From Hyphomonadaceae bacterium (lineage in GTDB: Bacteria; Pseudomonadota; Alphaproteobacteria; Caulobacterales; Aquidulcibacteraceae): 64,000 nucleotides of DNA. The notes beneath the pieces were generated by a model. The model ran no database searches and was not told the DNA's origin. It saw only the letters and a program-made list of their open reading frames with translations. The position numbers and the translations under genes are program-made. How positions within the stretch are numbered: the first letter of the stretch is position 1; every line of letters starts with the position of its first letter. Positions 7,618 through 21,992 of the stretch are shown piece after piece. Where the stretch lies: positions 62,001-126,000 of the forward strand of contig JAIELJ010000005.1 in the NCBI GenBank assembly GCA_019753105.1, written 5' to 3'.

Positions 7618-8535
7618 TCAACCCCGCGAGATCGAGGCCTGGTAATAGCTCGCTGCGTCATGCCCGAAAAAGCGGATGTCGAGCGATGCTGGCGTCAGCG
7701 TACAGGCGACGAAACCGGGGCGCGTAAGCACGAAGCGCGATTGCGGCGCGCTGGTGACGGGTCGAACCTCGGCCCCTGAGCCCGAGCAGATATAGTTCAC
7801 GCCCTCAGCTTCCAGATGTTCGAGATCGTGATCGTGGCCATTGAAATAGGCTTGCACGCCGTAACGTTGCAGCAGTGGGCGCACGTGCTCGTACACGCCG
7901 CGCGAGCCGCCATGTGCGCCGCTTGAATAAACCGGGTGATGGCCGACGACGATGCGCCACGGCGCGCGGCAGGAGGCGAGTTCGCGTTCAAGCCACATGA
8001 TCTGATCGCGCGCGCCGAAATCGGCTTGCGGAACGTCGTCTCGCAGTCCGATCAGGTGTGTGATCGGCGTTGTGTCGATGAAGAAGAACGCGACCTCGGA
8101 GCCGTCTGCAAGCGTAGCGGTTTGGCTCCAATAGCGCGACGGCATGCGCCAGCGCGGGCTGGTGCGTGTGTATTCGACCTCGGCGCCGGGCGAGCCCATA
8201 TAATCGTGGTTGCCGAGCACGACATACCAAGGCCGCTGCAATGCCGGCGCGGTGTAGACCTCTTCGAACGTGCGCTGCCACTGCGGGTCGGCGATCGATT
8301 CCACGCCTTGTCCGTAGAAATTGTCACCTGTCGAAATGACGAAGGCGCTGTGAAGATCGGCGCCGACGCGGCCCATCGCCTGCGCGACGGGCCTTTGGTA
8401 GGGCGTGCGCTCGCCCCAATCGCCGATCACGAGAAAAGATAGATCAGGCGTATCGGCGTACGCACATGGCGCGAGTACGCTAGCCGCCGCGCCCAGAAGA
8501 AATCCGCGCCGCGATGCCGGTCGGTTAAGCTGCAT
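7618..8535 (-). CDS. Secreted metallophosphoesterase (acid phosphatase-like), Tat-like signal
   Basis: RRGFLLGAAASV; GDWGE, STGDNFY, LGNHDY, VGHHPVYS, NGHDHDLEH metallophosphoesterase motifs. Confidence 0.9.
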   Translation of the reverse strand: MQLNRPASRRGFLLGAAASVLAPCAYADTPDLSFLVIGDWGERTPYQRPVAQAMGRVGADLHSAFVISTGDNFYGQGVESIADPQWQRTFEEVYTAPALQRPWYVVLGNHDYMGSPGAEVEYTRTSPRWRMPSRYWSQTATLADGSEVAFFFIDTTPITHLIGLRDDVPQADFGARDQIMWLERELASCRAPWRIVVGHHPVYSSGAHGGSRGVYEHVRPLLQRYGVQAYFNGHDHDLEHLEAEGVNYICSGSGAEVRPVTSAPQSRFVLTRPGFVACTLTPASLDIRFFGHDAASYYQASISRG

Positions 8536-8687
8536 AAGTGTCTCCCGCACGCTAAGCGGTGACGGGGGATGCAGGCGGAAGCATGGCCGCCTGTTGAGAC
8601 TGCGAGCGACTTGCGCCCAGGCGCCATCAGAGGGTGCGCGGGCAGAATTTTGCGTTAGCTTGGAGCGCGAAATTTGGAGCCGCCGAT

Positions 8688-8987
8688 ATGACGGAACACG
8701 CCAGCGCCTATTCCGAGAGCGCGTTCAAGACCAAGCTCAGCACCCTAGCTGGCCTCGACAAGCTGATTGATGCGGCAAAGCAGGTTCACACCATGTTGCG
8801 CGATCCCGCGACGCCGCTCTGGGTGAAGGGGCTGTGCATCGGCGTGCTCGGCTATCTGATCGTGCCGACGGATGTGGTGGCGGATTTCGTGCCGGTGCTT
8901 GGCTATGGCGATGATCTTGCGGCGCTGACGGCCGTGATCGCGACGATCGCTGCGCGCTTGCCGAAAGCGGAAGCCGCGAACGATTAG
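8688..8987 (+). CDS. YkvA family (DUF1232) protein
   Basis: PLWVKGLCIGVLGYLIVPTDVVADFVPVLGYGDDLAAL. Confidence 0.85.
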   Translation: MTEHASAYSESAFKTKLSTLAGLDKLIDAAKQVHTMLRDPATPLWVKGLCIGVLGYLIVPTDVVADFVPVLGYGDDLAALTAVIATIAARLPKAEAAND

Positions 8988-9556
8988 AGATTGCGCGCCA
9001 ACTCCGCCAAGCAACGCGGATAGAGCTCGTGCTCCAGTGTCAGCACGCGCCCTGCGAGCGTCTCGGGCGTGTCGCTAGCGATGATCGGCATGCGCGCTTG
9101 GCCGAGGATGCGGCCCGCGTCCACTTCTTCGACGACGAGATGGACGGTGCAGCCATGTTCGCTCTCCCCCGCCGCGAGCGCGCGTTCGTGGGTTTTGGTG
9201 CCGGGGAATTTCGGCAGCAGCGACGGGTGGATGTTGACCAGGCGCTCTTTCCACGAGTTTACGAAGTAGGGCGTCAGCACGCGCATGAAGCCAGCGAGCG
9301 CGATGATCTCAACATTACGTGCGCGCAGCAGCGCGTTGAGTTCGCGCTCGAACGCTTCGCGGTCTTTGCCGAACTGTTTGTGGTCGAGCGTCAGCGCTTC
9401 GATGCCGGCGGCGCGTGCGCGTTGAAGGCCGCCTGCGTCGGGGATGTTGGAAACGACAGCGACGATTTCGTAAGCGTCTTGGTCAGCGTCGATCAGCGCC
9501 TGCAGATTGGTGCCGCGGCCTGAGATGAGGACAGCCACTCGCCTTTTCGCGCTCAT
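8984..9556 (-). CDS. purN: Phosphoribosylglycinamide formyltransferase
   Basis: RVAVLISGRGTNLQALID...ALAGFMRVLTPYFVNSWKERLVNIHPSLLPKFPG. Confidence 0.97.
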   Translation of the reverse strand: MSAKRRVAVLISGRGTNLQALIDADQDAYEIVAVVSNIPDAGGLQRARAAGIEALTLDHKQFGKDREAFERELNALLRARNVEIIALAGFMRVLTPYFVNSWKERLVNIHPSLLPKFPGTKTHERALAAGESEHGCTVHLVVEEVDAGRILGQARMPIIASDTPETLAGRVLTLEHELYPRCLAELARNL

Positions 9557-9602
9557 TTGCGTCCCCAATCGTCATCCTGGGGCAATGCGAAGCAGGCGCG
9601 GA

Positions 9603-10637
9603 TCACGGGTTCTTCAGCACGCCGATCTTGAACGCGCTCTCGCCGGCGCCATCGAGCATCGCCACAACCTCGTCCGCCTTTTCAGGCGCGACGATCAGGA
9701 TCATGCCGATGCCGAGATTGAAGGTGCGGCGCATATCTTCTTCGGGCACGCCGCCGGTTGCTTGCAGCCATTCGAACACGGCAGGGCGCTGCCACGCGTT
9801 CCAGTCGAAGTCTGCTTCCAGGTGATCGGGCAGCGCGCGCGGTGTATTTTCGACGAGGCCGCCGCCAGTGATGTGCGCAGCTCCCTTGGCGAGCTTTGCG
9901 TCGAACACAGGCTTCAGCGCCTTTGCGTAAATCCGCGTAGGCTGAAGCAGCGCTTCCGCCATCGTCTTGCCGGCAGCGAACGGCGCCGGCGCATCCCAGG
10001 CGAGGCCGGAGCGCTCGACAACTTTGCGCACCAGCGAATAGCCGTTCGAGTGCGGGCCGCTTGATGCAATGCCGACGATCACATCGCCCGCCTGCATTTC
10101 GCTCACACGCGGCAGCAACGTGCCGCGCTCAGCTGCGCCGACGGAGAAACCCGCGAGGTCGTAATCACCCTTGGCGTACATGCCCGGCATTTCCGCCGTC
10201 TCGCCGCCAGCCAAGGCCGCACCCGCTTGGCGGCAGCCTTCGGCGATGCCCAGAACAACCTTGGCCGCTTCCTCGGCGTTCAGTTTGCCGGTGGCGTAGT
10301 AGTCGAGGAACATGAGCGGCTCGGCGCCTTGGGCGGAGAGATCGTTCACGCACATGGCGACGAGATCGATGCCGACAGTCTCATGGCGTCCGCTTTCAAT
10401 GGCGATTTTGAGCTTGGTGCCGACGCCGTCGGTGGTCGCCAGGAAGATTGGGTCCTTGAAGCCTGCGGCCTTGGGGTCGAACACGGCGGCGAATCCGCCC
10501 AGAGCCGCTTCCGCCCCCGGACGGGCTGTGGATTTCGCCGCGGGTTTGATCAAATCGACCAGACGCTCGCCCTCGTCGATATCGACGCCAGCGTCGCGAT
10601 AAGTCAGCCCGTTGGTTCCGTTTGGATTATTGGTCAC
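9603..10637 (-). CDS. purM: Phosphoribosylformylglycinamidine cyclo-ligase
   Basis: [21 protein letters not shown]...GGFAAVFD...[16 protein letters not shown] start inferred. Confidence 0.96.
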
Positions 10638-10718
10638 GTGATGAGTCCAGAAGCCGCCACATTGATAGGCGATTCCGCGCCGGATAGGGTGCCCGCGCCC
10701 CCACTTAGAGGTTTGAGC

Positions 10719-11780
10719 ATGAAAACTACGCCCCTGGCCACCGTCGCCGCGTTGTTCGCCGCGGCCTTGTGCGCGTTCGCGCCAGGCCTCGCAACCGCTC
10801 AGACCCGCGACAATGTCTACGTCGTTTCGGGTGTGACTGTGGATCAGACCGCCGCCAACGCCGCCGCTGCCCAACAGGCTGGTTTGGCCGCCGCCCAGCA
10901 AAGAGCGTTCGAGCGCCTAGTGCGCCGCCTGACGTTGCCCGAGGACTTGGTCGCGCGCGGCATGCCGGTGGCGGATGGTGCGGCGATCGAGCGGCTCGTG
11001 CTTAGCGTGGATGTTGAAGAAGAGCGGCGCTCAGGCACGCGCTATATCGGCCGGCTGACGTTGCGCTTCGATCCAACGGGCTTTCGTACGCTGCTCCGTC
11101 AGCATGGATTGACGGTGGTCGATACGCGCACCTCACCGGTTCTCGTTGCGGCCGTTGTCGGCGATGGCGTCACGCCAGAAACAGCGGCGGTCTGGCGTGA
11201 AGTGTGGGCCAATGCGGGATATGGCGATGAACTCGTTCCGCTGACTGTCGCGCCCGAAGGCCTGCGCGGCCCGCCGAACTGGCAGACGGCTCAGCCTTTC
11301 GCGCAAGCGGCAGGCGCGACTTCGGTGATCTTCGCCACGCTGCGAACGCAAGGCGGCACGGTCGTGGCTTCGCTGGTGGAAGTAGATGCCAACGCGCGCC
11401 GTGAGCGTGCGGACGTTGCTTCGCGCATCGATGGCGATAACGGTCTGCGCGCAGCGCTCGCATCGCTCGCAGAGCAAGCCAACACGCGCGTCCAAAACGA
11501 GTGGCGCGCGCGTCTGGCCACCGGCGCCGGGCAACGCGAACGCGTCACCGCCTCGGCGCTCTATAGCGATCAGACGCAATGGGAGCAGATCAAGGACGCG
11601 CTCGAGGCCGCTGCCGCGACGATTATCTCGGAGATCCGCATTCAGGCTGTTGGCCGCGAGGGCGCGCTGGTGTCGTTCTCGTACGTCGGCGATCGCACGC
11701 AATTGGTGGCCGAACTGACGCGACGCGGGGTGAGCGTGCAGGATACGCCGCAAGGCGTCGTACTGCGCGTCGCGCGCTAG
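10719..11780 (+). CDS. Secreted DUF2066-type protein
   Basis: Signal peptide; [41 protein letters not shown]; located before hdaA. Confidence 0.75.
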
Positions 11781-11791
11781 CCAGCGAAGCA

Positions 11792-12481
11792 ATGAACGAG
11801 CAGCCGCGCCTATTCGAGTTCCGCATGGGCGAGCGCTCGCCCGATAGCTTGGTCGTCACCGAAGCCAATAGAGACGCCGCGCATCTGCTGACTCAATGGC
11901 AGTCCTGGCCTAACGGGGCGTTGGCGCTTGTGGGGCCGAAGGGCGCTGGAAAAACGCACTTGGCGCTGGCTTGGGCGCTGGAAGCCGGGGCGCGGCAGCT
12001 CTCGCCAAGCGCGCCGGCGGATGAGGCGGCGGCGCTGTTCCGTGCCTCTGGGGGCCGTCTGTTTATCGATGATGCAGAGGGCCCGCGCGACGATGGCATG
12101 CTCTGGCGACTACTGGATTTGGCCAGAACCGAGGGCGGCGCGGTTCTCTTAACCGGGTCTGAAAGCCCGTCACGCTGGCAGGTCAAGACGCCCGATCTCG
12201 CCTCGCGGCTCAAATCCCTGGCCGTCGCCCGCCTGCAAGAGCCCGATCAGGCGCTGATGGAGGTGGTTTTGCGCCGCATTTGTCGCGAACAATTCATTTA
12301 TCTGAGCGATGATGCCGTTCGGTTTTTGGCGCTCCGCCTGCCGCGCACCTTCGAGGCTGCGCATCAGGCGGCGGCGGCGTTAGACGCGGACCTGGTCAAG
12401 GGCGCTAAGCCTATCTCGCTGAAAGCGGCGAAGGCGGCGCTCGAAAAAGTCCAAGCCGCGTGGGGTGGTGGAGACGGTTAA
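11792..12481 (+). CDS. hdaA: DnaA-related regulatory inactivator HdaA
   Basis: Walker A LVGPKGAGKTHLA, DnaA/Hda-type AAA+ architecture; hdaA-ppk-ppx order. Confidence 0.85.
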   Translation: MNEQPRLFEFRMGERSPDSLVVTEANRDAAHLLTQWQSWPNGALALVGPKGAGKTHLALAWALEAGARQLSPSAPADEAAALFRASGGRLFIDDAEGPRDDGMLWRLLDLARTEGGAVLLTGSESPSRWQVKTPDLASRLKSLAVARLQEPDQALMEVVLRRICREQFIYLSDDAVRFLALRLPRTFEAAHQAAAALDADLVKGAKPISLKAAKAALEKVQAAWGGGDG

Positions 12482-12484
12482 CAG

Positions 12485-14689
12485 ATGGCGAAGACGCGCA
12501 AGAAAACGCGCGCGACGACGCAAAACGCGTCGCTGCTGACGAGCCCCAATCGGTTCATCAATCGAGAGCTCTCCTGGCTCGCGTTCAACACGCGCGTGCT
12601 GGAAGAAGCGGAGAACGAAAACCATCCGTTGCTTGAGCGGCTGCGCTTTCTCTCGATCTCGGCGTCCAACCTCGACGAATTCTACATGGTCCGCGTCGCC
12701 GGCTTGCATGAGCAGGTGAAGGCGGGCGCAAGCGTGCTCAGCCTCGATGGCCTGACACCTGCTGAACAGCTTTCGCGTATTCACGCCGCCGCAGCGGAAT
12801 TGCTGACGCGCCAGCAGCAACGTTGGCGCGCGCTGCGCGCCGAGCTGCGCGCGGCTGGCATCGCCGTGCTCGACCCTGAAGAACTTACCTCGGAAGAGCG
12901 TGCATCTCTGAAGCCGTTTTTCATGGCGGAAGTGTTTCCACTTCTGACGCCGCTCGCGGTGGATCCAGCCCACCCTTTCCCGTTCATCCCGAACTTGGGC
13001 TTCGCTATCGCGCTGAAGCTGAAGCGCAAGGGCGATGGCCGGACGTTGAACGCGCTGATCCCGGTGCCGACGCAGGTGGCGCGTTTCATCGACGTGACGC
13101 TGGCGCATCCGCAAACCGATCTCGCGCCAGGCGAGCGCCCGCAGCGCCGCTTCCTCACCCTCGAAAACACCATCGCGCTCTTCCTCGACGAGCTTTTCCC
13201 GGATTATTGGGTCGAAGCGCAGGGCGCGTTCCGCGTCGTTCGCGACAGCGACATTGAAATCCAGGAAGAGGCCGAAGATCTCGTCCGCGAGTTCGAAGCG
13301 CGTCTAAAAGAGCGCCGCCTCGGCGATATCGTGCGTTTGAAGGTCGAGGCTTCGATGGCCGATGACCTGCGCGCCTTCATCGTGCGCGAGATCGAAGCCG
13401 ATGCGCGCGATGTCATTATCATTGACGGCATGCTCGGCATGGCCGCACTTTCGGCGCTGGTCAGCGAAGAGCGCCCCGAACTGAAATTCCCGCGCTACGA
13501 GCCGCGCTTCCCGGAGCGCATCAAGGATTTCGGCGGCGATAGCTTCGCGGCAATCCGCGCCAAGGACATCCTAGTCCACCACCCGTTCGAGTCATTTGAC
13601 TCGGTGGTTCAGTTCCTGCGCCAAGCCGCCGCCGATCCGGCCGTGGTCGCCATCAAGCAAACGCTTTACCGCACTTCGCGTGACTCACCGATCGTGGCCG
13701 CCTTGGTCGCTGCCGCTGAGGCCGGCAAGAACGTCACGGCCGTCATCGAACTGAAGGCGCGCTTCGACGAAGAGACAAACCTCAATGTCGCGCGCAAACT
13801 CGAAGCCGCTGGCGCCTCGGTCATCTACGGCTTTATCGACTTCAAGACCCACGCAAAGGTGAGCATGGTCGTGCGCCGAGAGGCTGAGGGCCTGCGCACC
13901 TACACGCACTACGGCACCGGCAACTACCACCCGATCAATGCGCGCATTTACACCGATCTGTCGTTGTTCACCTGCGATCCTGCTTTCGGGCGCGATGCAA
14001 ACCGGTTGTTCAATTTCGTCACCGGCTACGCGCGCCCGGCGGCGCTCGAGAAGATCTCGATGTCGCCATTCAATTCGAAGGCGACGCTGCTGCAGCTCAT
14101 CCAGGATGAGATCGATCACGTCAAAGCCGGCCGCGACGGCGCGATCTGGGCCAAGCTCAACTCGCTCGTGCATCCTGAGATTATCGACGCGCTCTATCGC
14201 GCCTCTAATGCCGGTGTGAAAATCGAACTGGTGGTGCGCGGTATCTGCTGCTTGCGCGCCGGTGTTCCCGGGCTCTCGGAGAACATCCGCGTCAAGTCGA
14301 TCGTGGGGCGGTTCCTGGAGCACTCGCGCATCGTTTGTTTCGGCGCCGGGCGAAAACTCCCCAATCCGGACGCCAAGGTCTATATTTCTTCGGCTGACTG
14401 GATGCCTCGAAACCTCGAACGCCGTGTTGAGGTTCTTTGCCCGATTGAAAACCCGACCGTTCACCAGCAAGTACTCGACCAGATCATGGTCGCGAACCTC
14501 AATGACGAGGCGCAATCCTGGTACATGGACCAGGATGGAGTATTCAAACGGGTCGATGTCTCAAAGCTCGAAAATCCGTTCTCGGCGCACGTCTACTTTA
14601 TGCGCAATCCGAGCCTCTCGGGCCGCGGTCGCGCGCTCAAGGGCGACGCACCCGCAGCCTTCGATCACATCGGCGCACGCGGCTCCTAA
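12485..14689 (+). CDS. ppk1: Polyphosphate kinase 1
   Basis: [20 protein letters not shown]...IKQTLYRTS...[23 protein letters not shown]. Confidence 0.97.
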
Positions 14690-14704
14690 GTTTGAGCCCG
14701 CGCG

Positions 14705-16201
14705 ATGAGCGCGGGCAAACTCCGCCCCTCGCAGGAAGCCGCCGTCATTGACGTAGGCTCCAACTCGGTGCGCTTGGTCGTCTATCGCATCGATGGACGC
14801 GCGATGACGCCGATCCTGAACGAGAAGGTCATGGCAGGCCTCGGCCGCGATCTCTCGCGCAAGGGATTGCTCTCGAAGGATGGCGTCGAGGTAGCGCTCG
14901 CTGCGCTAAAGCGGTTTGCGACAATCATCGAAGCGCTCGATGTGCGCGATGTGTTTCCCGTTGCGACCGCTGCGGTGCGGGACGCGAAAGACGGCCCAGC
15001 GTTCGTGCAGCGCGTCACTGATGAGACGGGATTCAAGCTACGCGTCTTGAGCGGCGAAGACGAAGCGCGGCTTTCTGCGCTCGGTGTCGCTGGTGGATCG
15101 CCTGATGCGGCAGGCATCGTCGGCGATCTTGGCGGCGCGAGCCTCGAACTGGTTGAGATCGGCCCTAAAGGCTTAGGCCGCGGCGAAACGTTTCCGCTTG
15201 GGCCCCTGACGCTCGCGGAAGACGCGGAATTCGATTATGGCCGCGTTGGAGATCACGTCTCCGACGTGCTGGAAAAAACCAAATTGCTCGGCAAACGCGG
15301 TGGCGCCTTCTACGCCGTCGGCGGCGCTTGGCGCGCGCTCGGCCGCATTGATATCGCGCTTTCCAATCACCCGCTCGGCGTGCTGCATCAACACGAGATG
15401 AACCGCAATCAGGTGATGAAAGTCGTTGATGTCGTGCGCAAGCAAAGCAAGCGCTCGCTCGAAAAACTGGAAGAGGCCGCAGCAAAGCGCGCTGATACAT
15501 TGCCGTATGCCGCCGTCGTGCTCGAACGCGTAATGGTGGCGGGCAATTTCGATCGCGTAGTGCTTTCCGCGTTCGGGTTGCGGGAAGGCGTGCTCCTAGA
15601 ACAGATGAGCGAAGAGGCGCTTGCGGTGCATCCGCTGATCGCCGGCGCTGAAGCATTGGCGGGGCGCTGGAGCCGCGCGCAGGCCTTCGGTCAAGCGCTC
15701 GATCATTGGATCGCGCCGATGTTCACCAGGCAAGAGATCATCTTCAGCAAGAAGCATGACGAGATCATTCGTGGGGCGGCGGCGCGGCTTGCCGATGTCG
15801 GCGGGCCGCTCCATCCGGATCAGCGCGTCGAGATCATGTTTGATCTCATTCTGCGCGCCCCGCTCGCGGCCATCAGCCACGCTGAGCGTGCGTTTCTTGC
15901 TGCCGCCATCCATCACCGCTACACCAAGGCGCCGCCCCGCCACGTCGAGGCGTACAACCGGCTGCTCTCCGAAGAGCAGCAGGCCGCAGCCGCTGCTTTG
16001 GGCGCAGCGCTCCGCCTGGGCGCTGATCTTTCCGGCCGCAGCGAGCCTTTGCTGGCCGGATTTGAGGTCCGTGCTGTTGACGGCAAGCTGGTGCTTCGTG
16101 TGAAGAAGGCGGTGGCGCACTTGGTCACGGAGACCGTACAGCGCCGGCTCGAAGCCGCCGCCCACGCGCTCGGCCTCACCGCGGAGTTGAAACAGGTATG
16201 A
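14705..16201 (+). CDS. ppx: Exopolyphosphatase
   Basis: AAVIDVGSNSVRLVVYRIDG ... GIVGDLGGASLELVEIG; adjacent to ppk1. Confidence 0.93.
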   Translation: MSAGKLRPSQEAAVIDVGSNSVRLVVYRIDGRAMTPILNEKVMAGLGRDLSRKGLLSKDGVEVALAALKRFATIIEALDVRDVFPVATAAVRDAKDGPAFVQRVTDETGFKLRVLSGEDEARLSALGVAGGSPDAAGIVGDLGGASLELVEIGPKGLGRGETFPLGPLTLAEDAEFDYGRVGDHVSDVLEKTKLLGKRGGAFYAVGGAWRALGRIDIALSNHPLGVLHQHEMNRNQVMKVVDVVRKQSKRSLEKLEEAAAKRADTLPYAAVVLERVMVAGNFDRVVLSAFGLREGVLLEQMSEEALAVHPLIAGAEALAGRWSRAQAFGQALDHWIAPMFTRQEIIFSKKHDEIIRGAAARLADVGGPLHPDQRVEIMFDLILRAPLAAISHAERAFLAAAIHHRYTKAPPRHVEAYNRLLSEEQQAAAAALGAALRLGADLSGRSEPLLAGFEVRAVDGKLVLRVKKAVAHLVTETVQRRLEAAAHALGLTAELKQV

Positions 16202-16498: not shown

Positions 16499-18541
16499 AT
16501 GAGCGAGGAACCTGGCGCGCGGAAGCTGGCGGCGATCCTGGCGATCGATCTCGTCGGCTACTCGGCGCTGAGCGAAGAGGATGAGGCGCAAGCCGTGACC
16601 GCCGTGTCGCGTCTGCGCGACGCGTTGGAGGGTGCGGCCCTCGTTCATGGCGGGCGCATCTTCAACACCGCGGGCGACGGCTTCATGCTTGAATTCTGTT
16701 CCGCCGCCGGCGCCTTGGGCGCAATCGACGAATTGTGGAACGCATTTGAGCGCTCGAGTGTGCGTATCGGTGTGCACATGGGCGATGTGCTCGCAACGCC
16801 GTCTGGCGACCTGCTCGGCCACAGCGTCAATGTCGCGGCGCGCCTGCAGCAAATCGCGCAGCCTGGCGCGGTGATGGTCTCGATGGACGTGCGCCGCGCC
16901 GTTCGCGGAAAGTTACAGCAACGCCTTCACGCGGCTGGCGCCATTCAACTCGACAAGATGAGCGAGACGCTCGACGTTTTCACGTTGGAAGTTCATGCCA
17001 TCGTCAACGACAAGCCGCGCCCGCGTAAGCCCGAGCCCGTGCTGGCTGTCCTGCCGTACGACAATGATAGTGACGAGCAGGAGATGGAATTCTTCTCCGA
17101 TGGCGTCGCCGATGAAATCATTTCGCTGCTGTTGAAGCATTCGAAGATCAAGGTGATCGGCCGCACATCGGCCTTTCAATTCCGCGGCGACCGCAAAGGC
17201 GAAGCGGCGCAAGCGCTGGGGGCGTCGCACCTGCTCGACGGCGCAGTGCGCTGCACGAAGACAGCGCTGCGCGTGAACGCCCAGCTGATCGATGCAGGCA
17301 GCGGTATGGTGTTGTGGAGCGAACGCTATGAGGGCGCGCGCACCGATGCGTTCGCGCTCGAGGACGAGATTGCCGGCAAGGTGGCCGCGTCGCTCCGCCG
17401 CTCGCTGACCAGCACCGATCGTGCGGCGCAGGCGATCGATCCCGCCGCGCACGAGCTTTATCTCAGGGCACGCCAAATCTGGCTGATGCTGAGCGATATC
17501 GAGGAGGATCAGGCTGAGATTCTGCTCGAACGCTGCGTAGCGCTTGCGCCCGAGTTCGCCGACGGATGGGCCGTGCTGGCCAGTGTCCGTGCATTTCTTC
17601 TGCCGCGTGACCGCGACATGATCGGAGAGCCGCAACACGATGCGGCGCTCGCAGCGGCGCATCGCGCGCTGAAGCTCGATCCAGAGTGCGCGCAGGCAAT
17701 GGCGGCGCTCTCGCTGCTGAAGCCGGCGTTCGGCGAGCACGCTGAAAAGCTGCGGCTGGTCAATGAGGCGCTGAAACGCACGCCGAACGATTCCTCCTTA
17801 CACGTCGCGCGCGCCGCTTGGCTCTATAGTGTCGGGCGTATGCGCGACGCGATGACGGCGCTCGATGTCGCCAGCAGGCTCGATCCGTTAGGCCCGGCTG
17901 TGGAGGGCCTGCGCGCCAGCTTGCTCGCGGCGCATGGCGATCTCGATACCGCAATCGAGATCATGCAAGCCGCTTGGGCGCGGTGGCCGGACTCCGCGTT
18001 CATTTGGTACATCACTTGGAGCACGCTCTGTGCGGCGCGGCGCCTGGACGAAGCCGAAGCGCTCGCCGCCAAAGGCGTAGCGCCCAAGCGTGGCGTGAAC
18101 GAGCGCGATATCGCGATACTGCGCAATTACGTTGCGCTGCTGCGTGTGCAGGGCGACGACCGCCGCGAAGCCTGCCAGCACCTGCTCGCGCAAGTCGCGG
18201 CAAGTGAAGGCGCGTTGCCGCTCTCAACGGTGATCTTCGCCGCCAGCAATGGCTGCGCCGATCAGGCCTTTGACGTGCTACACGCCGCGCTAGACGCCGG
18301 CCGCAGTATTCGCCCCGACAATCACGACGCCTTCGGCATGGCGCGCGCGCAAGCGGCGCTGCAGCTCTTCGCCGCCAATGGCGGTGAGCCGCTCTGGGCG
18401 CATCCGCGCTTTCCCGCACTCGCGGCGCGCCTCGGACTCGCGCAATATTGGGTCGAGACCAAGAAGTGGCCCGATTGCGCTGCAAAGACCGCGTATGACT
18501 TCAAAGCCGGTTGCCGCGAAGCCATCGCGGCGCTCGCTTAG
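16499..18541 (+). CDS. Class III adenylate/guanylate cyclase domain + TolB-like region + TPR repeats
   Basis: [58 protein letters not shown], repeated TPR-like helices. Confidence 0.88.
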
Positions 18542-18699
18542 TTAAGCGCGAGCGCCGTCACCACGTCCGCCCAGCTCACATATTTGAAGTTCTGAAAGCC
18601 GTTCGGGTTCGTGTTCTCATCGTCCTGAACGACGAACATGCCTTGTGGAAACTCCGCGCTGAGCGGGGTGGAGACAACGTCGATGCCATCTGTGGCCTT
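18538..18699 (-). pseudogene. 3' remnant of a beta-propeller phytase
   Basis: Minus-strand frame reads [53 protein letters not shown], resembling a phytase C-terminus; in-frame TAG directly upstream; no 5' part. Confidence 0.7.
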
Positions 18700-20161
18700 C
18701 TACGTTCGCACCGATCGCACCGAGACCGAATTGTCGCGTACGTTCGAGGACGAAACCAGCGTCGCCGACGCCGACCTTGTGGAAGTGACGCCGCAGTTCG
18801 AGGACATTCTTCAGCAGAACTACTCGCTGGCGGCGGAACTGACCTTCCCGTCCTTCGGTGGCGAGACCCAAATCGAACTGGGCTTCGCCCGCTTCGAGGA
18901 CGATATCGTCGGCACCGAGGAAACCAGCGAATACGATCCGTTCCCGACGCTAGATTCCTTCGAGGGTACGCGTGAATTGATCGACATGGTCGACGAAGAG
19001 ACCAGCCTCGAATTGCAGCACGAGCGTGATTTCGGTTCGATGCAGCTCGAATTCGGCGTCGACTATCGTCTGAAACAGCGCGATTCTCTCGTCACCCTCG
19101 CCGAGATCGGCGCGCCGGGCGATCCGTACAACGCGTTCGAGCTGGACTCGGAGTTCGGTCTGCGTGAGCAGCGCATCGATCCCTATGTCATGCTTACCGG
19201 GCGTAGCAATGCGTTCCAGTGGGAAGCGGGCCTGCGCTACGAAATGACTGAACTCGAGATCGAAGGCTACGCCGACTACAACGATGATGACGTCGACGAT
19301 TTCGACCGCGCCGATAGCGACTACGCCTTCCTGCTGCCGTCAGCGCACCTGCGCTTCGATCTGACTGAGGATGATCGTCTGAACTTCTCCGTGGCGCGCA
19401 CCGTGCGCCGCCCGAACTTCGACACGCTCTCGCCTGTCGCCGAAGATGAATCGCCGACCGAGGATTTCTCGTTCATCGGCAATCCAACGCTTGAGCCGGA
19501 AACCGCGTGGGGCGTTGACGTTGGCTACGAGCGCCGTCTCGGCCGCGGCGGTATCGCCGGCCTCAACTTCTTCTATCGCGGCATCCAAGACCTGATCGAA
19601 GTTGCCGCCACCGGCGACACATGCGAAGGCCTACCGCTCTTGAGCCCGCAGAATGTCGGCGACGGCTCGGTATGGGGCATCGAGTTCGACTTCTCCGCGC
19701 CGCTCACATTGTTTGGCTTGGAAAACACCGGCGTGTTCGTGAACTATTCTTGGCTCGACAGCGAAGTCACCGATCCGGTGACGGGACAGGAACGCCGCTT
19801 CAACGATCAGGCGGAGTCGGTGTTCAATGTCGGCTTCATCCAAGATCTGCCGACGCTCAACACCAGCTTCGGCGCCAGCTATCGCGAGCAAGGCGATGCG
19901 TTCTTCCGCATCCAGGGCGAAGAAGGCACGACGATCTATAGCGGCGATCTCGAAATTTTCATCGAGCACCGCATCGGTGACAATTTCACGCTTCGCTTCA
20001 CCGGCTCGAACCTGCTCGATGCAGAGAAGGAAAAAATCTATCGCACCTACGAAACGCTGGCGTCCCAGCTCAACCCGGCGATCGAGTCCGGCGAAGAGCT
20101 GGAGTTCGAGCGCGAAGAGTCGGGCCCGGTATTCCAACTGGTCGGCCGCTACGCGTTCTGA
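18690..20161 (+). pseudogene. TonB-dependent receptor beta-barrel fragment lacking signal peptide and plug
   Basis: [21 protein letters not shown]...LNFSVARTVRRPNFDTLSPV...GNPTLEPETAWGVDVGYERRLG...GPVFQLVGRYAF; starts mid-protein, inside the antisense of the phytase remnant. Confidence 0.8.
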
Positions 20162-20217: not shown

Positions 20218-21369
20218 TCAGGCGTCTTCGACGCTGACCTTGCCGTCTTTGAGCTTTAGCGCCAGACGGCCATGCTTCAGCGCCAGTGCGCGTTCGCCGA
20301 ACACTTTGCGCCGCCAGCCGCGCAGCGCTGGGACGTCGGCTTCGTCGTTAGCCGCAATCGCTTCCACATCAGCCGCCGATGCGATCAAACGCGGCGCGAC
20401 ATTGTGGTGGTCCGCTTCGAAGCGAAGCAGGACTTTCAGCAATTCGACCGTTGGCCCCAGCCCGGGCGGCAACGGTGGCAAACGCTCGTGCTTGTATTGC
20501 GCACGGTTCGGATCGTTAAAGGCGCGGTCGAGCGCTTGGATCAGCTCTTGAGCAGAGCGCGAGTTACCGAAGCCGCGCGGCACGGCGCGCATGCGTTCGA
20601 AGTCGGCCGCGCTCTTTGGACGCTGCTCGGCAATCTCGTAGAGCGCTTCGTCTTTCACGATACGCCCGCGCGGCACGTCGCGTGCTTGCGCTTGCCGCTC
20701 GCGCCACGCCGCCGCAACTTGCAGGCCGAGAACGTAATCAGCGGTCGTCTTGCGTAGCTTCAAGCGCTGCCAGGAATTCTCCGGCGTCGTATCGTAAATG
20801 TCCGGATTGAGCAGATTGGCGTGCTCTTCGTCGAGCCAGCTCAAGCGATCGTCGCGTTCGAGCTTGTCGCGCATCTTTGGGAAAAGATCGCGCAGGTGCG
20901 TGACGTCGGCGAGTGCGTAGGTGAGCTGGTTTTCCGAAAGCGGCCGGCGGCTCCAATCGGTGAAGCGCGAAGACTTGTCCAAGCGCCGCTTCAGGATTTG
21001 CTGCACGAGCGCGTCGTACGCGATTGTATCGCCGTAGCCGCACGCCATCGCGCCGATCTGGGTATCGAACACCGGCGCGGGCAGGGCGTCGCCGAGCTTC
21101 AGGAAGATTTCCAAATCCTGGCGTGCAGCGTGGAACACCTTGAGGATGCTCGTGTCGGCCAGCAGCGCCATGAACGGCGCGAGGTCGAGGCCTTCGGCGA
21201 GAGGGTCGATGACCGCCTCCACCCCGTTCGAAGCCGCCGCCTGGATCAGACAAAGCTTCGGCCAGTAGGTGGTCTCGCGCATAAATTCGGTATCGACCGC
21301 GACGAAGTCCGCCCCGGCCAATTCCTGGCGGAACGCTTCAAGATCAGCGGTCTTCGTAATCAGACGCAT
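20218..21369 (-). CDS. rnd: Ribonuclease D
   Basis: FVAVDTEFMRETTYWPKLCLIQAA...KVFHAARQDLEIF...DVTHLRDLF. Confidence 0.96.
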   Translation of the reverse strand: MRLITKTADLEAFRQELAGADFVAVDTEFMRETTYWPKLCLIQAAASNGVEAVIDPLAEGLDLAPFMALLADTSILKVFHAARQDLEIFLKLGDALPAPVFDTQIGAMACGYGDTIAYDALVQQILKRRLDKSSRFTDWSRRPLSENQLTYALADVTHLRDLFPKMRDKLERDDRLSWLDEEHANLLNPDIYDTTPENSWQRLKLRKTTADYVLGLQVAAAWRERQAQARDVPRGRIVKDEALYEIAEQRPKSAADFERMRAVPRGFGNSRSAQELIQALDRAFNDPNRAQYKHERLPPLPPGLGPTVELLKVLLRFEADHHNVAPRLIASAADVEAIAANDEADVPALRGWRRKVFGERALALKHGRLALKLKDGKVSVEDA

Positions 21370-21470
21370 GAGGGGTGGTTGAGGCGTGCAGCCCTTGGGG
21401 TCAAGGGCCGGGGCTGAATTGGCCCGCCTCCTGCGACGCCAGAGCCGAATCATTCTGGAGTTGCGCCGAT

Positions 21471-21992
21471 ATGAAACGCGCTGCGCTTTTTGCCGCCCTA
21501 TTCGCATTAACGACCCCGGCCTTTGCCCAGGTCTCGGACACGGGCGGCCCGATTACGTCCCAGGCTGAGCGTGACGCCACGGCCGACCGCGTCCGTAGCG
21601 GCGCTTCCTGCGCTTCCTGCGATCTTTTCCAGATCGATCTGGCCTACCAGAACGTCTCCGGTCGCGACTTCCACGGCTCACGCATCCGCCAGGCCGATCT
21701 CACCATCTCCATCGCCGACCGTACCAATTTCGCCGGCGCCAATCTCTCGCTGACCAACATGTTCGGCATGCGCGCCACACGCGCTGACTTCACAGGCGCC
21801 AACCTCTCGGGCGCTTCGCTCGTCGGCGCTCATCTCGGCAGCGCGCGGCTCAATGGCGCGGTGCTCGCGGGCGCGAACCTCTCGGGCGCGGAACTCGCGG
21901 AAGCCATCGGGCTCACTCAGGAACAACTGAATACTGCTTGCGGCGACGCAACAACCACGCTGCCCAGCGGCATGACTATCGCCCGCTGCTGA
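21471..21992 (+). CDS. Secreted pentapeptide-repeat protein (copy 1)
   Basis: Signal peptide; CASCDLF; ADFTGANLSGASLVGAHLGSARLNGAVLAGANLSGAELAEA; GLTQEQLNTACGDATTTLPSGMTIARC. Confidence 0.85.
   Translation: MKRAALFAALFALTTPAFAQVSDTGGPITSQAERDATADRVRSGASCASCDLFQIDLAYQNVSGRDFHGSRIRQADLTISIADRTNFAGANLSLTNMFGMRATRADFTGANLSGASLVGAHLGSARLNGAVLAGANLSGAELAEAIGLTQEQLNTACGDATTTLPSGMTIARC

Follow-up and report, generated by a model that had tools for sequence, protein, structure and literature searches.

In Flavobacterium johnsoniae, the phytase-linked receptor of Fjoh_1367/1368 is induced by low phosphate (PMC8115612), and in Citromicrobium bathyomarinum a receptor gene adjoins a phytase gene (PMC3400609). 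The locus described here displays the same partnership as each of these systems, but both of its genes are truncated at one junction, and the passages on the partnership in either source mention no truncation.

The locus lies in the window, as we call the whole 64,000-nucleotide stretch of DNA that was analysed, which contains no N. We consider it highly probable that one deletion of ~1.83 kb made a young pseudogene pair out of a divergent phytase/receptor pair, and that this route to phytate was lost with it. The features of the locus are as follows:

16499 to 18541, plus strand: left neighbour, adenylate/guanylate cyclase-like and TPR protein (PF00211, TPR); syntenic anchor
18538 to 18693, minus strand: beta-propeller phytase remnant, last ~52 codons and stop, with the 5' ~85% gone
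18638 to 18697, plus strand: first 20 codons of the 507-aa ORF, a spurious N-terminal extension antisense to the phytase tail and without receptor homology
18694 to 18699, no strand: putative deletion junction GGCCTT, placed by comparing protein and DNA with those of six intact pairs
18698 to 20161, plus strand: TonB-dependent receptor remnant, C-terminal ~487 barrel residues, frame unbroken; matches PF00593/PF14905 only
18700 to 18702, minus strand: in-frame TAG of the phytase frame (plus-strand CTA), in receptor-derived sequence according to sequence and alignment
20218 to 21507, minus strand: right neighbour, ribonuclease D-like exonuclease, named by sequence reading rather than profile search; syntenic anchor

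Further upstream (12485-16201), sequence reading points to a polyphosphate kinase and an exopolyphosphatase, a phosphate-metabolism neighbourhood.

A phytase tail on the minus strand

The frame at 18538-18699 is present in the window as the first-pass annotation had quoted it, and its assignment to the C-terminal segment of a phytase is borne out. In a profile search it matched the Pfam family Phytase (PF02333) with an E-value of 1.8e-10 and 40.8 bits, against a cut-off of 21. The solved Bacillus beta-propeller phytases 1poo, 3amr and 1cvm matched it with E-values of ~1e-6 to 1e-5, the 52-residue tail aligning with their residues 285-331. By sequence comparison, these matches are far above chance. 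The tail is also 65-73% identical to the C-termini of the phytases found at the same locus in relatives.

The PF02333 match spans only positions 307-357 of the 375 in the model, and of the propeller domain no more than ~52 C-terminal codons are left, without a start of their own. Compared with the Bacillus phytase (PF02333; 1poo/3amr), the tail is alike, but ~85% of the protein is gone from the window, and with it almost the whole propeller. The window phytase is thus a remnant and not a working member of the family. Its stop codon TAA (plus-strand TTA at 18538-18540) overlaps the cyclase stop codon by 4 bp (TTAG), and the same arrangement is seen in G011, a genome of the same genus that carries an intact pair.

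A receptor barrel without plug on the plus strand

The 507-aa ORF (18638-20161, plus strand) matched the PF00593 barrel at positions 60-436 with an E-value of 1.6e-34, and the receptor remnant also matches PF14905. The profile search gave no match of the plug domain PF07715 in this ORF, while the plug was found in all three intact receptors of relatives that were scanned. Signal peptide, TonB box, plug and first barrel strands are all missing from the remnant, and receptor homology begins with FYVRTDR at base 18698. The abrupt, plug-less start noted at about 18690 in the first pass is therefore real as to the barrel, with its position refined to 18698 and with about the first 120 barrel residues gone as well. 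The C-terminus, ...VGRYAF, has the aromatic end residue expected of a TonB-dependent receptor barrel.

The remnant is 43-53% identical to intact receptors of 757-828 aa. Full-length homologues without a plug, which had been named in advance as evidence against a truncation, did not appear: the close homologues of the barrel are open frames of 771-828 aa, none of the close matches was plug-less, and the three that were scanned all have the plug.

The 487 codons of the barrel frame contain no stop and no frameshift, and the barrel retains 52 of the 53 positions that are universally conserved across 28 receptors. Could selection be retaining the 507-aa barrel because it works as a plug-less porin or in some other role? 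The open frame and the 52 retained positions would fit this, but a clean frame is also expected after a recent event. Moreover, no signal peptide is apparent in the sequence, the start region is antisense to phytase, and no plug-less close homologue was seen. The receptor strand gave no sigma-70-like match; the sole one in the region lies on the opposite strand, about as expected by chance. Such a function is extremely unlikely, and the 507-aa ORF should not be named a functional receptor in annotation.

Of 149 columns that are otherwise invariant in the genus, the window barrel departs at 20 (other members, 0-6), and we considered whether this divergence reflects decay. Decay was rejected, since the barrel departs at only 1 of the 53 positions conserved over all 28 receptors and the receptor tree puts it on a separate branch of the family. 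A different receptor subtype is the more likely source of the excess of genus-level differences, judging from these sequence comparisons.

Intact divergent pairs in relatives

A head-to-head phytase and related receptor were seen in several of the 61 genomes searched. In three genomes of the same genus (G008, G011 and G024), the intact divergent pair occupies the identical site, with the same flanks and strands, and further divergent pairs were found in one Phenylobacterium MAG, three Sphingopyxis and one Sphingomonas. The divergent ancestor proposed in the first-pass annotation has intact counterparts in relatives, three of them between the same neighbours. The ribonuclease D-like orthologues (76-88% identity) adjoin the pair or directly adjoin the cyclase in relatives. 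Compared with the intact pairs in G011, G008 and G024, the window has the same site, strands and flanks; it is 1.83 kb shorter, and the promoter region is part of the loss.

The missing DNA is a single contiguous block of 1817, 1828, 1829, 1830, 1837 or 1841 bp, depending on which of six intact pairs is compared. Because this size is nearly constant across the six, a single deletion fits, in agreement with the earlier proposal that one internal deletion took both 5' halves and the shared promoter. The alternative is that two or more successive deletions occurred, or that a rearrangement united independently truncated genes. The state of the site does change often in the genus, where receptor-only and empty loci are known; however, order, strand and flanks are exactly as in the intact loci, and both homologies end within the same 6 bp, which one deletion accounts for alone. 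We give a history of several events very little weight, and a single deletion is our preferred reading.

Within the block lies the intergenic region that the two genes share, and in it a conserved Pho-box-like element. Upstream of the receptor, a 27-bp element is present in 8 of 8 same-genus loci examined, whether pair or receptor-only. It follows the pattern ATCAC, sixteen bases, (T/C)GTCA(C/T), with constant spacing, and resembles 11-bp-periodic Pho-box arrays. The clearest arrays are those of the Sphingopyxis loci, where GTCA(C/T) is repeated at 11-bp steps. The Pho-box-like pattern was not found in the window. From the motif, the promoter of the ancestral pair was probably PhoB-controlled.

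The junction

Homology to phytases runs out at about 18693-18696 and receptor homology starts at 18698, so that the two meet within 6 bp. Alignment to the intact pairs places the junction at 18694-18699, inside the interval of about 18685-18700 expected from the first pass. At the protein level, the phytases of the genus read VQGTDGID at the breakpoint and the window reads KATDGID, with homology ending upstream of TDG; the receptors read (D/S)G-F/V-Y-V-R-T-DR or similar, and the window A-FYVRTDR. In DNA, the phytase side of relatives is GTGCCTTG and their receptor side GGCTTC or a close variant, against TGTGGCCTTCTACG across the junction of the window.

The in-frame TAG reported just upstream of the minus-strand frame does exist. 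It is not a mutation of the phytase, since TAG 18700-18702 lies on the receptor side of the junction in the alignment. The Lys codon before ATDG is likewise no phytase sequence: it too belongs to the receptor half, at or past the junction.

Judged from relatives, CTT at 18697-18699 fits both ancestral sides (phytase GCCTTG, receptor GGCTTC), and a microhomology of about 3 bp is possible. One base at the junction is accounted for by neither side, again as judged from relatives; because the window barrel sits on a separate branch, no close relative supplies the exact ancestral breakpoint sequence. No long direct or inverted repeats were found at the junction. Of the short direct repeats suggested for the breakpoints, then, only this possible microhomology was seen, and we infer from the lack of long repeats an illegitimate, microhomology-level event.

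The own genome and the question of assembly

The genome that contains the window (3.87 Mb, 20 contigs, 99.98% complete) holds no second copy of what is missing. The phytase remnant is its sole PF02333 match in the profile search, and the intact G011 phytase used as query matches this locus only, with no other phytase found. The intact G011 receptor matched the truncated barrel and distant receptors only; for its N-terminal part, the rest of the genome gave nothing close, the best match (33% identity) being to other receptors with long intact frames.

These searches bear on the possibility that the cell has an intact pair and that some 1.8 kb of it was lost in assembly. A draft of 20 contigs leaves room for such an error, but the junction lies deep within a 228-kb contig and has no long repeat to mislead an assembler, and none of the other contigs carries the missing sequence, at a completeness of 99.98%. 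Misassembly is thereby made unlikely, and we see only a slim chance of it.

Proposed origin, age and consequences

We propose that the ancestor had a divergent phytase and TonB-dependent receptor pair, probably PhoB-controlled, between the cyclase/TPR and ribonuclease D-like genes. In one illegitimate event, involving no more than a few bp of microhomology, some 1.83 kb would have been deleted and the last ~52 phytase codons joined to receptor residue ~305 (G011 numbering), with the loss of both 5' parts and the entire shared promoter region. The deletion very probably killed both genes, as the head-to-head stubs would give no working enzyme or transporter. Intact orthologues at the syntenic site and one contiguous missing segment were both found, as for a pseudogene pair. 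Since the stubs cannot work, the locus would be a young pseudogene pair and the organism would have lost this route to phytate phosphorus; it should not be called a phytate user on account of this locus. A PhoX match is retained in the genome, so other organic phosphate can probably still be used.

The age was bounded by neutral simulation of the substitutions before a first disabling change, which depends on the assumed indel rate: the median was 0.4-1.5% substitutions and the 95% limit 1.7-6.4%. The flanking genes show ~20-25% nucleotide divergence from the nearest relatives. If the remnants were unselected, the intact frame would therefore put the event at no more than about 2-6% neutral divergence, late on the branch leading to the window. 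The retention of 52 of 53 conserved barrel positions agrees with a recent event, and the earlier suggestion of recency is thus supported by the intact frames, the simulated bound and the conserved positions alike.

This is an ordinary kind of gene-loss event, a pseudogene pair, in a new instance that is well resolved here. A literature search for receptor-deletion scars was empty, and the three papers found to combine phytase and TonB receptor carry no such topic in their titles. The locus offers a clean, roughly datable snapshot of the loss of phosphorus scavenging: an enzyme and the transporter presumed to serve it are disabled together by a single deletion that spans the promoter they share.

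Turnover of the site in the genus

With one genome per species, 23 genomes of the genus were found to have a cyclase/TPR orthologue, the window genome among them. The intact pair was found in 3, the receptor alone in 3, the truncated pair in 1 (the window), and a phytase with a same-strand, unrelated receptor in 2; 10 have no phytase or related receptor between the cyclase and the ribonuclease D-like gene, and 4 are unassigned. Because these states are scattered across the genus tree, repeated loss, gain or replacement has occurred at the site. Together the genomes form a small natural series for the study of accessory nutrient cassettes: intact, receptor only, phytase with a swapped receptor, truncated and empty.

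On a broader reading, selection would repeatedly remove or swap an accessory phytate-uptake cassette at this site, for instance because its receptor is exposed to phage or because another phytase elsewhere makes it redundant, and the window would be a partial loss caught midway. We regard this as rather unlikely.

Several states of the site are clear in individual genomes. Between the near sisters G001 (L103) and G011 (L066), about 92% identical in nucleotides, the whole 3.6-kb phytase-receptor cassette (G011 8316-11910) is exactly absent from G001, from the stop codon of the cyclase gene to that of the ribonuclease D-like gene. In G022 (L104) and G002 (L113), the site phytase stands beside a distantly related same-strand receptor, its partner swapped. 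The receptor-only genomes G005, G019 and G023 (L071, L072 and L073) retain the receptor and the Pho-box-like element, with phytase cleanly missing. Each of the three also has, at another place in its genome, a two-domain phytase of about 690 aa that may have rendered the local phytase redundant; the window genome is without one. In G023, a phytase at C1:437703-438673 (L074) lies in two overlapping frames and is apparently frameshifted.
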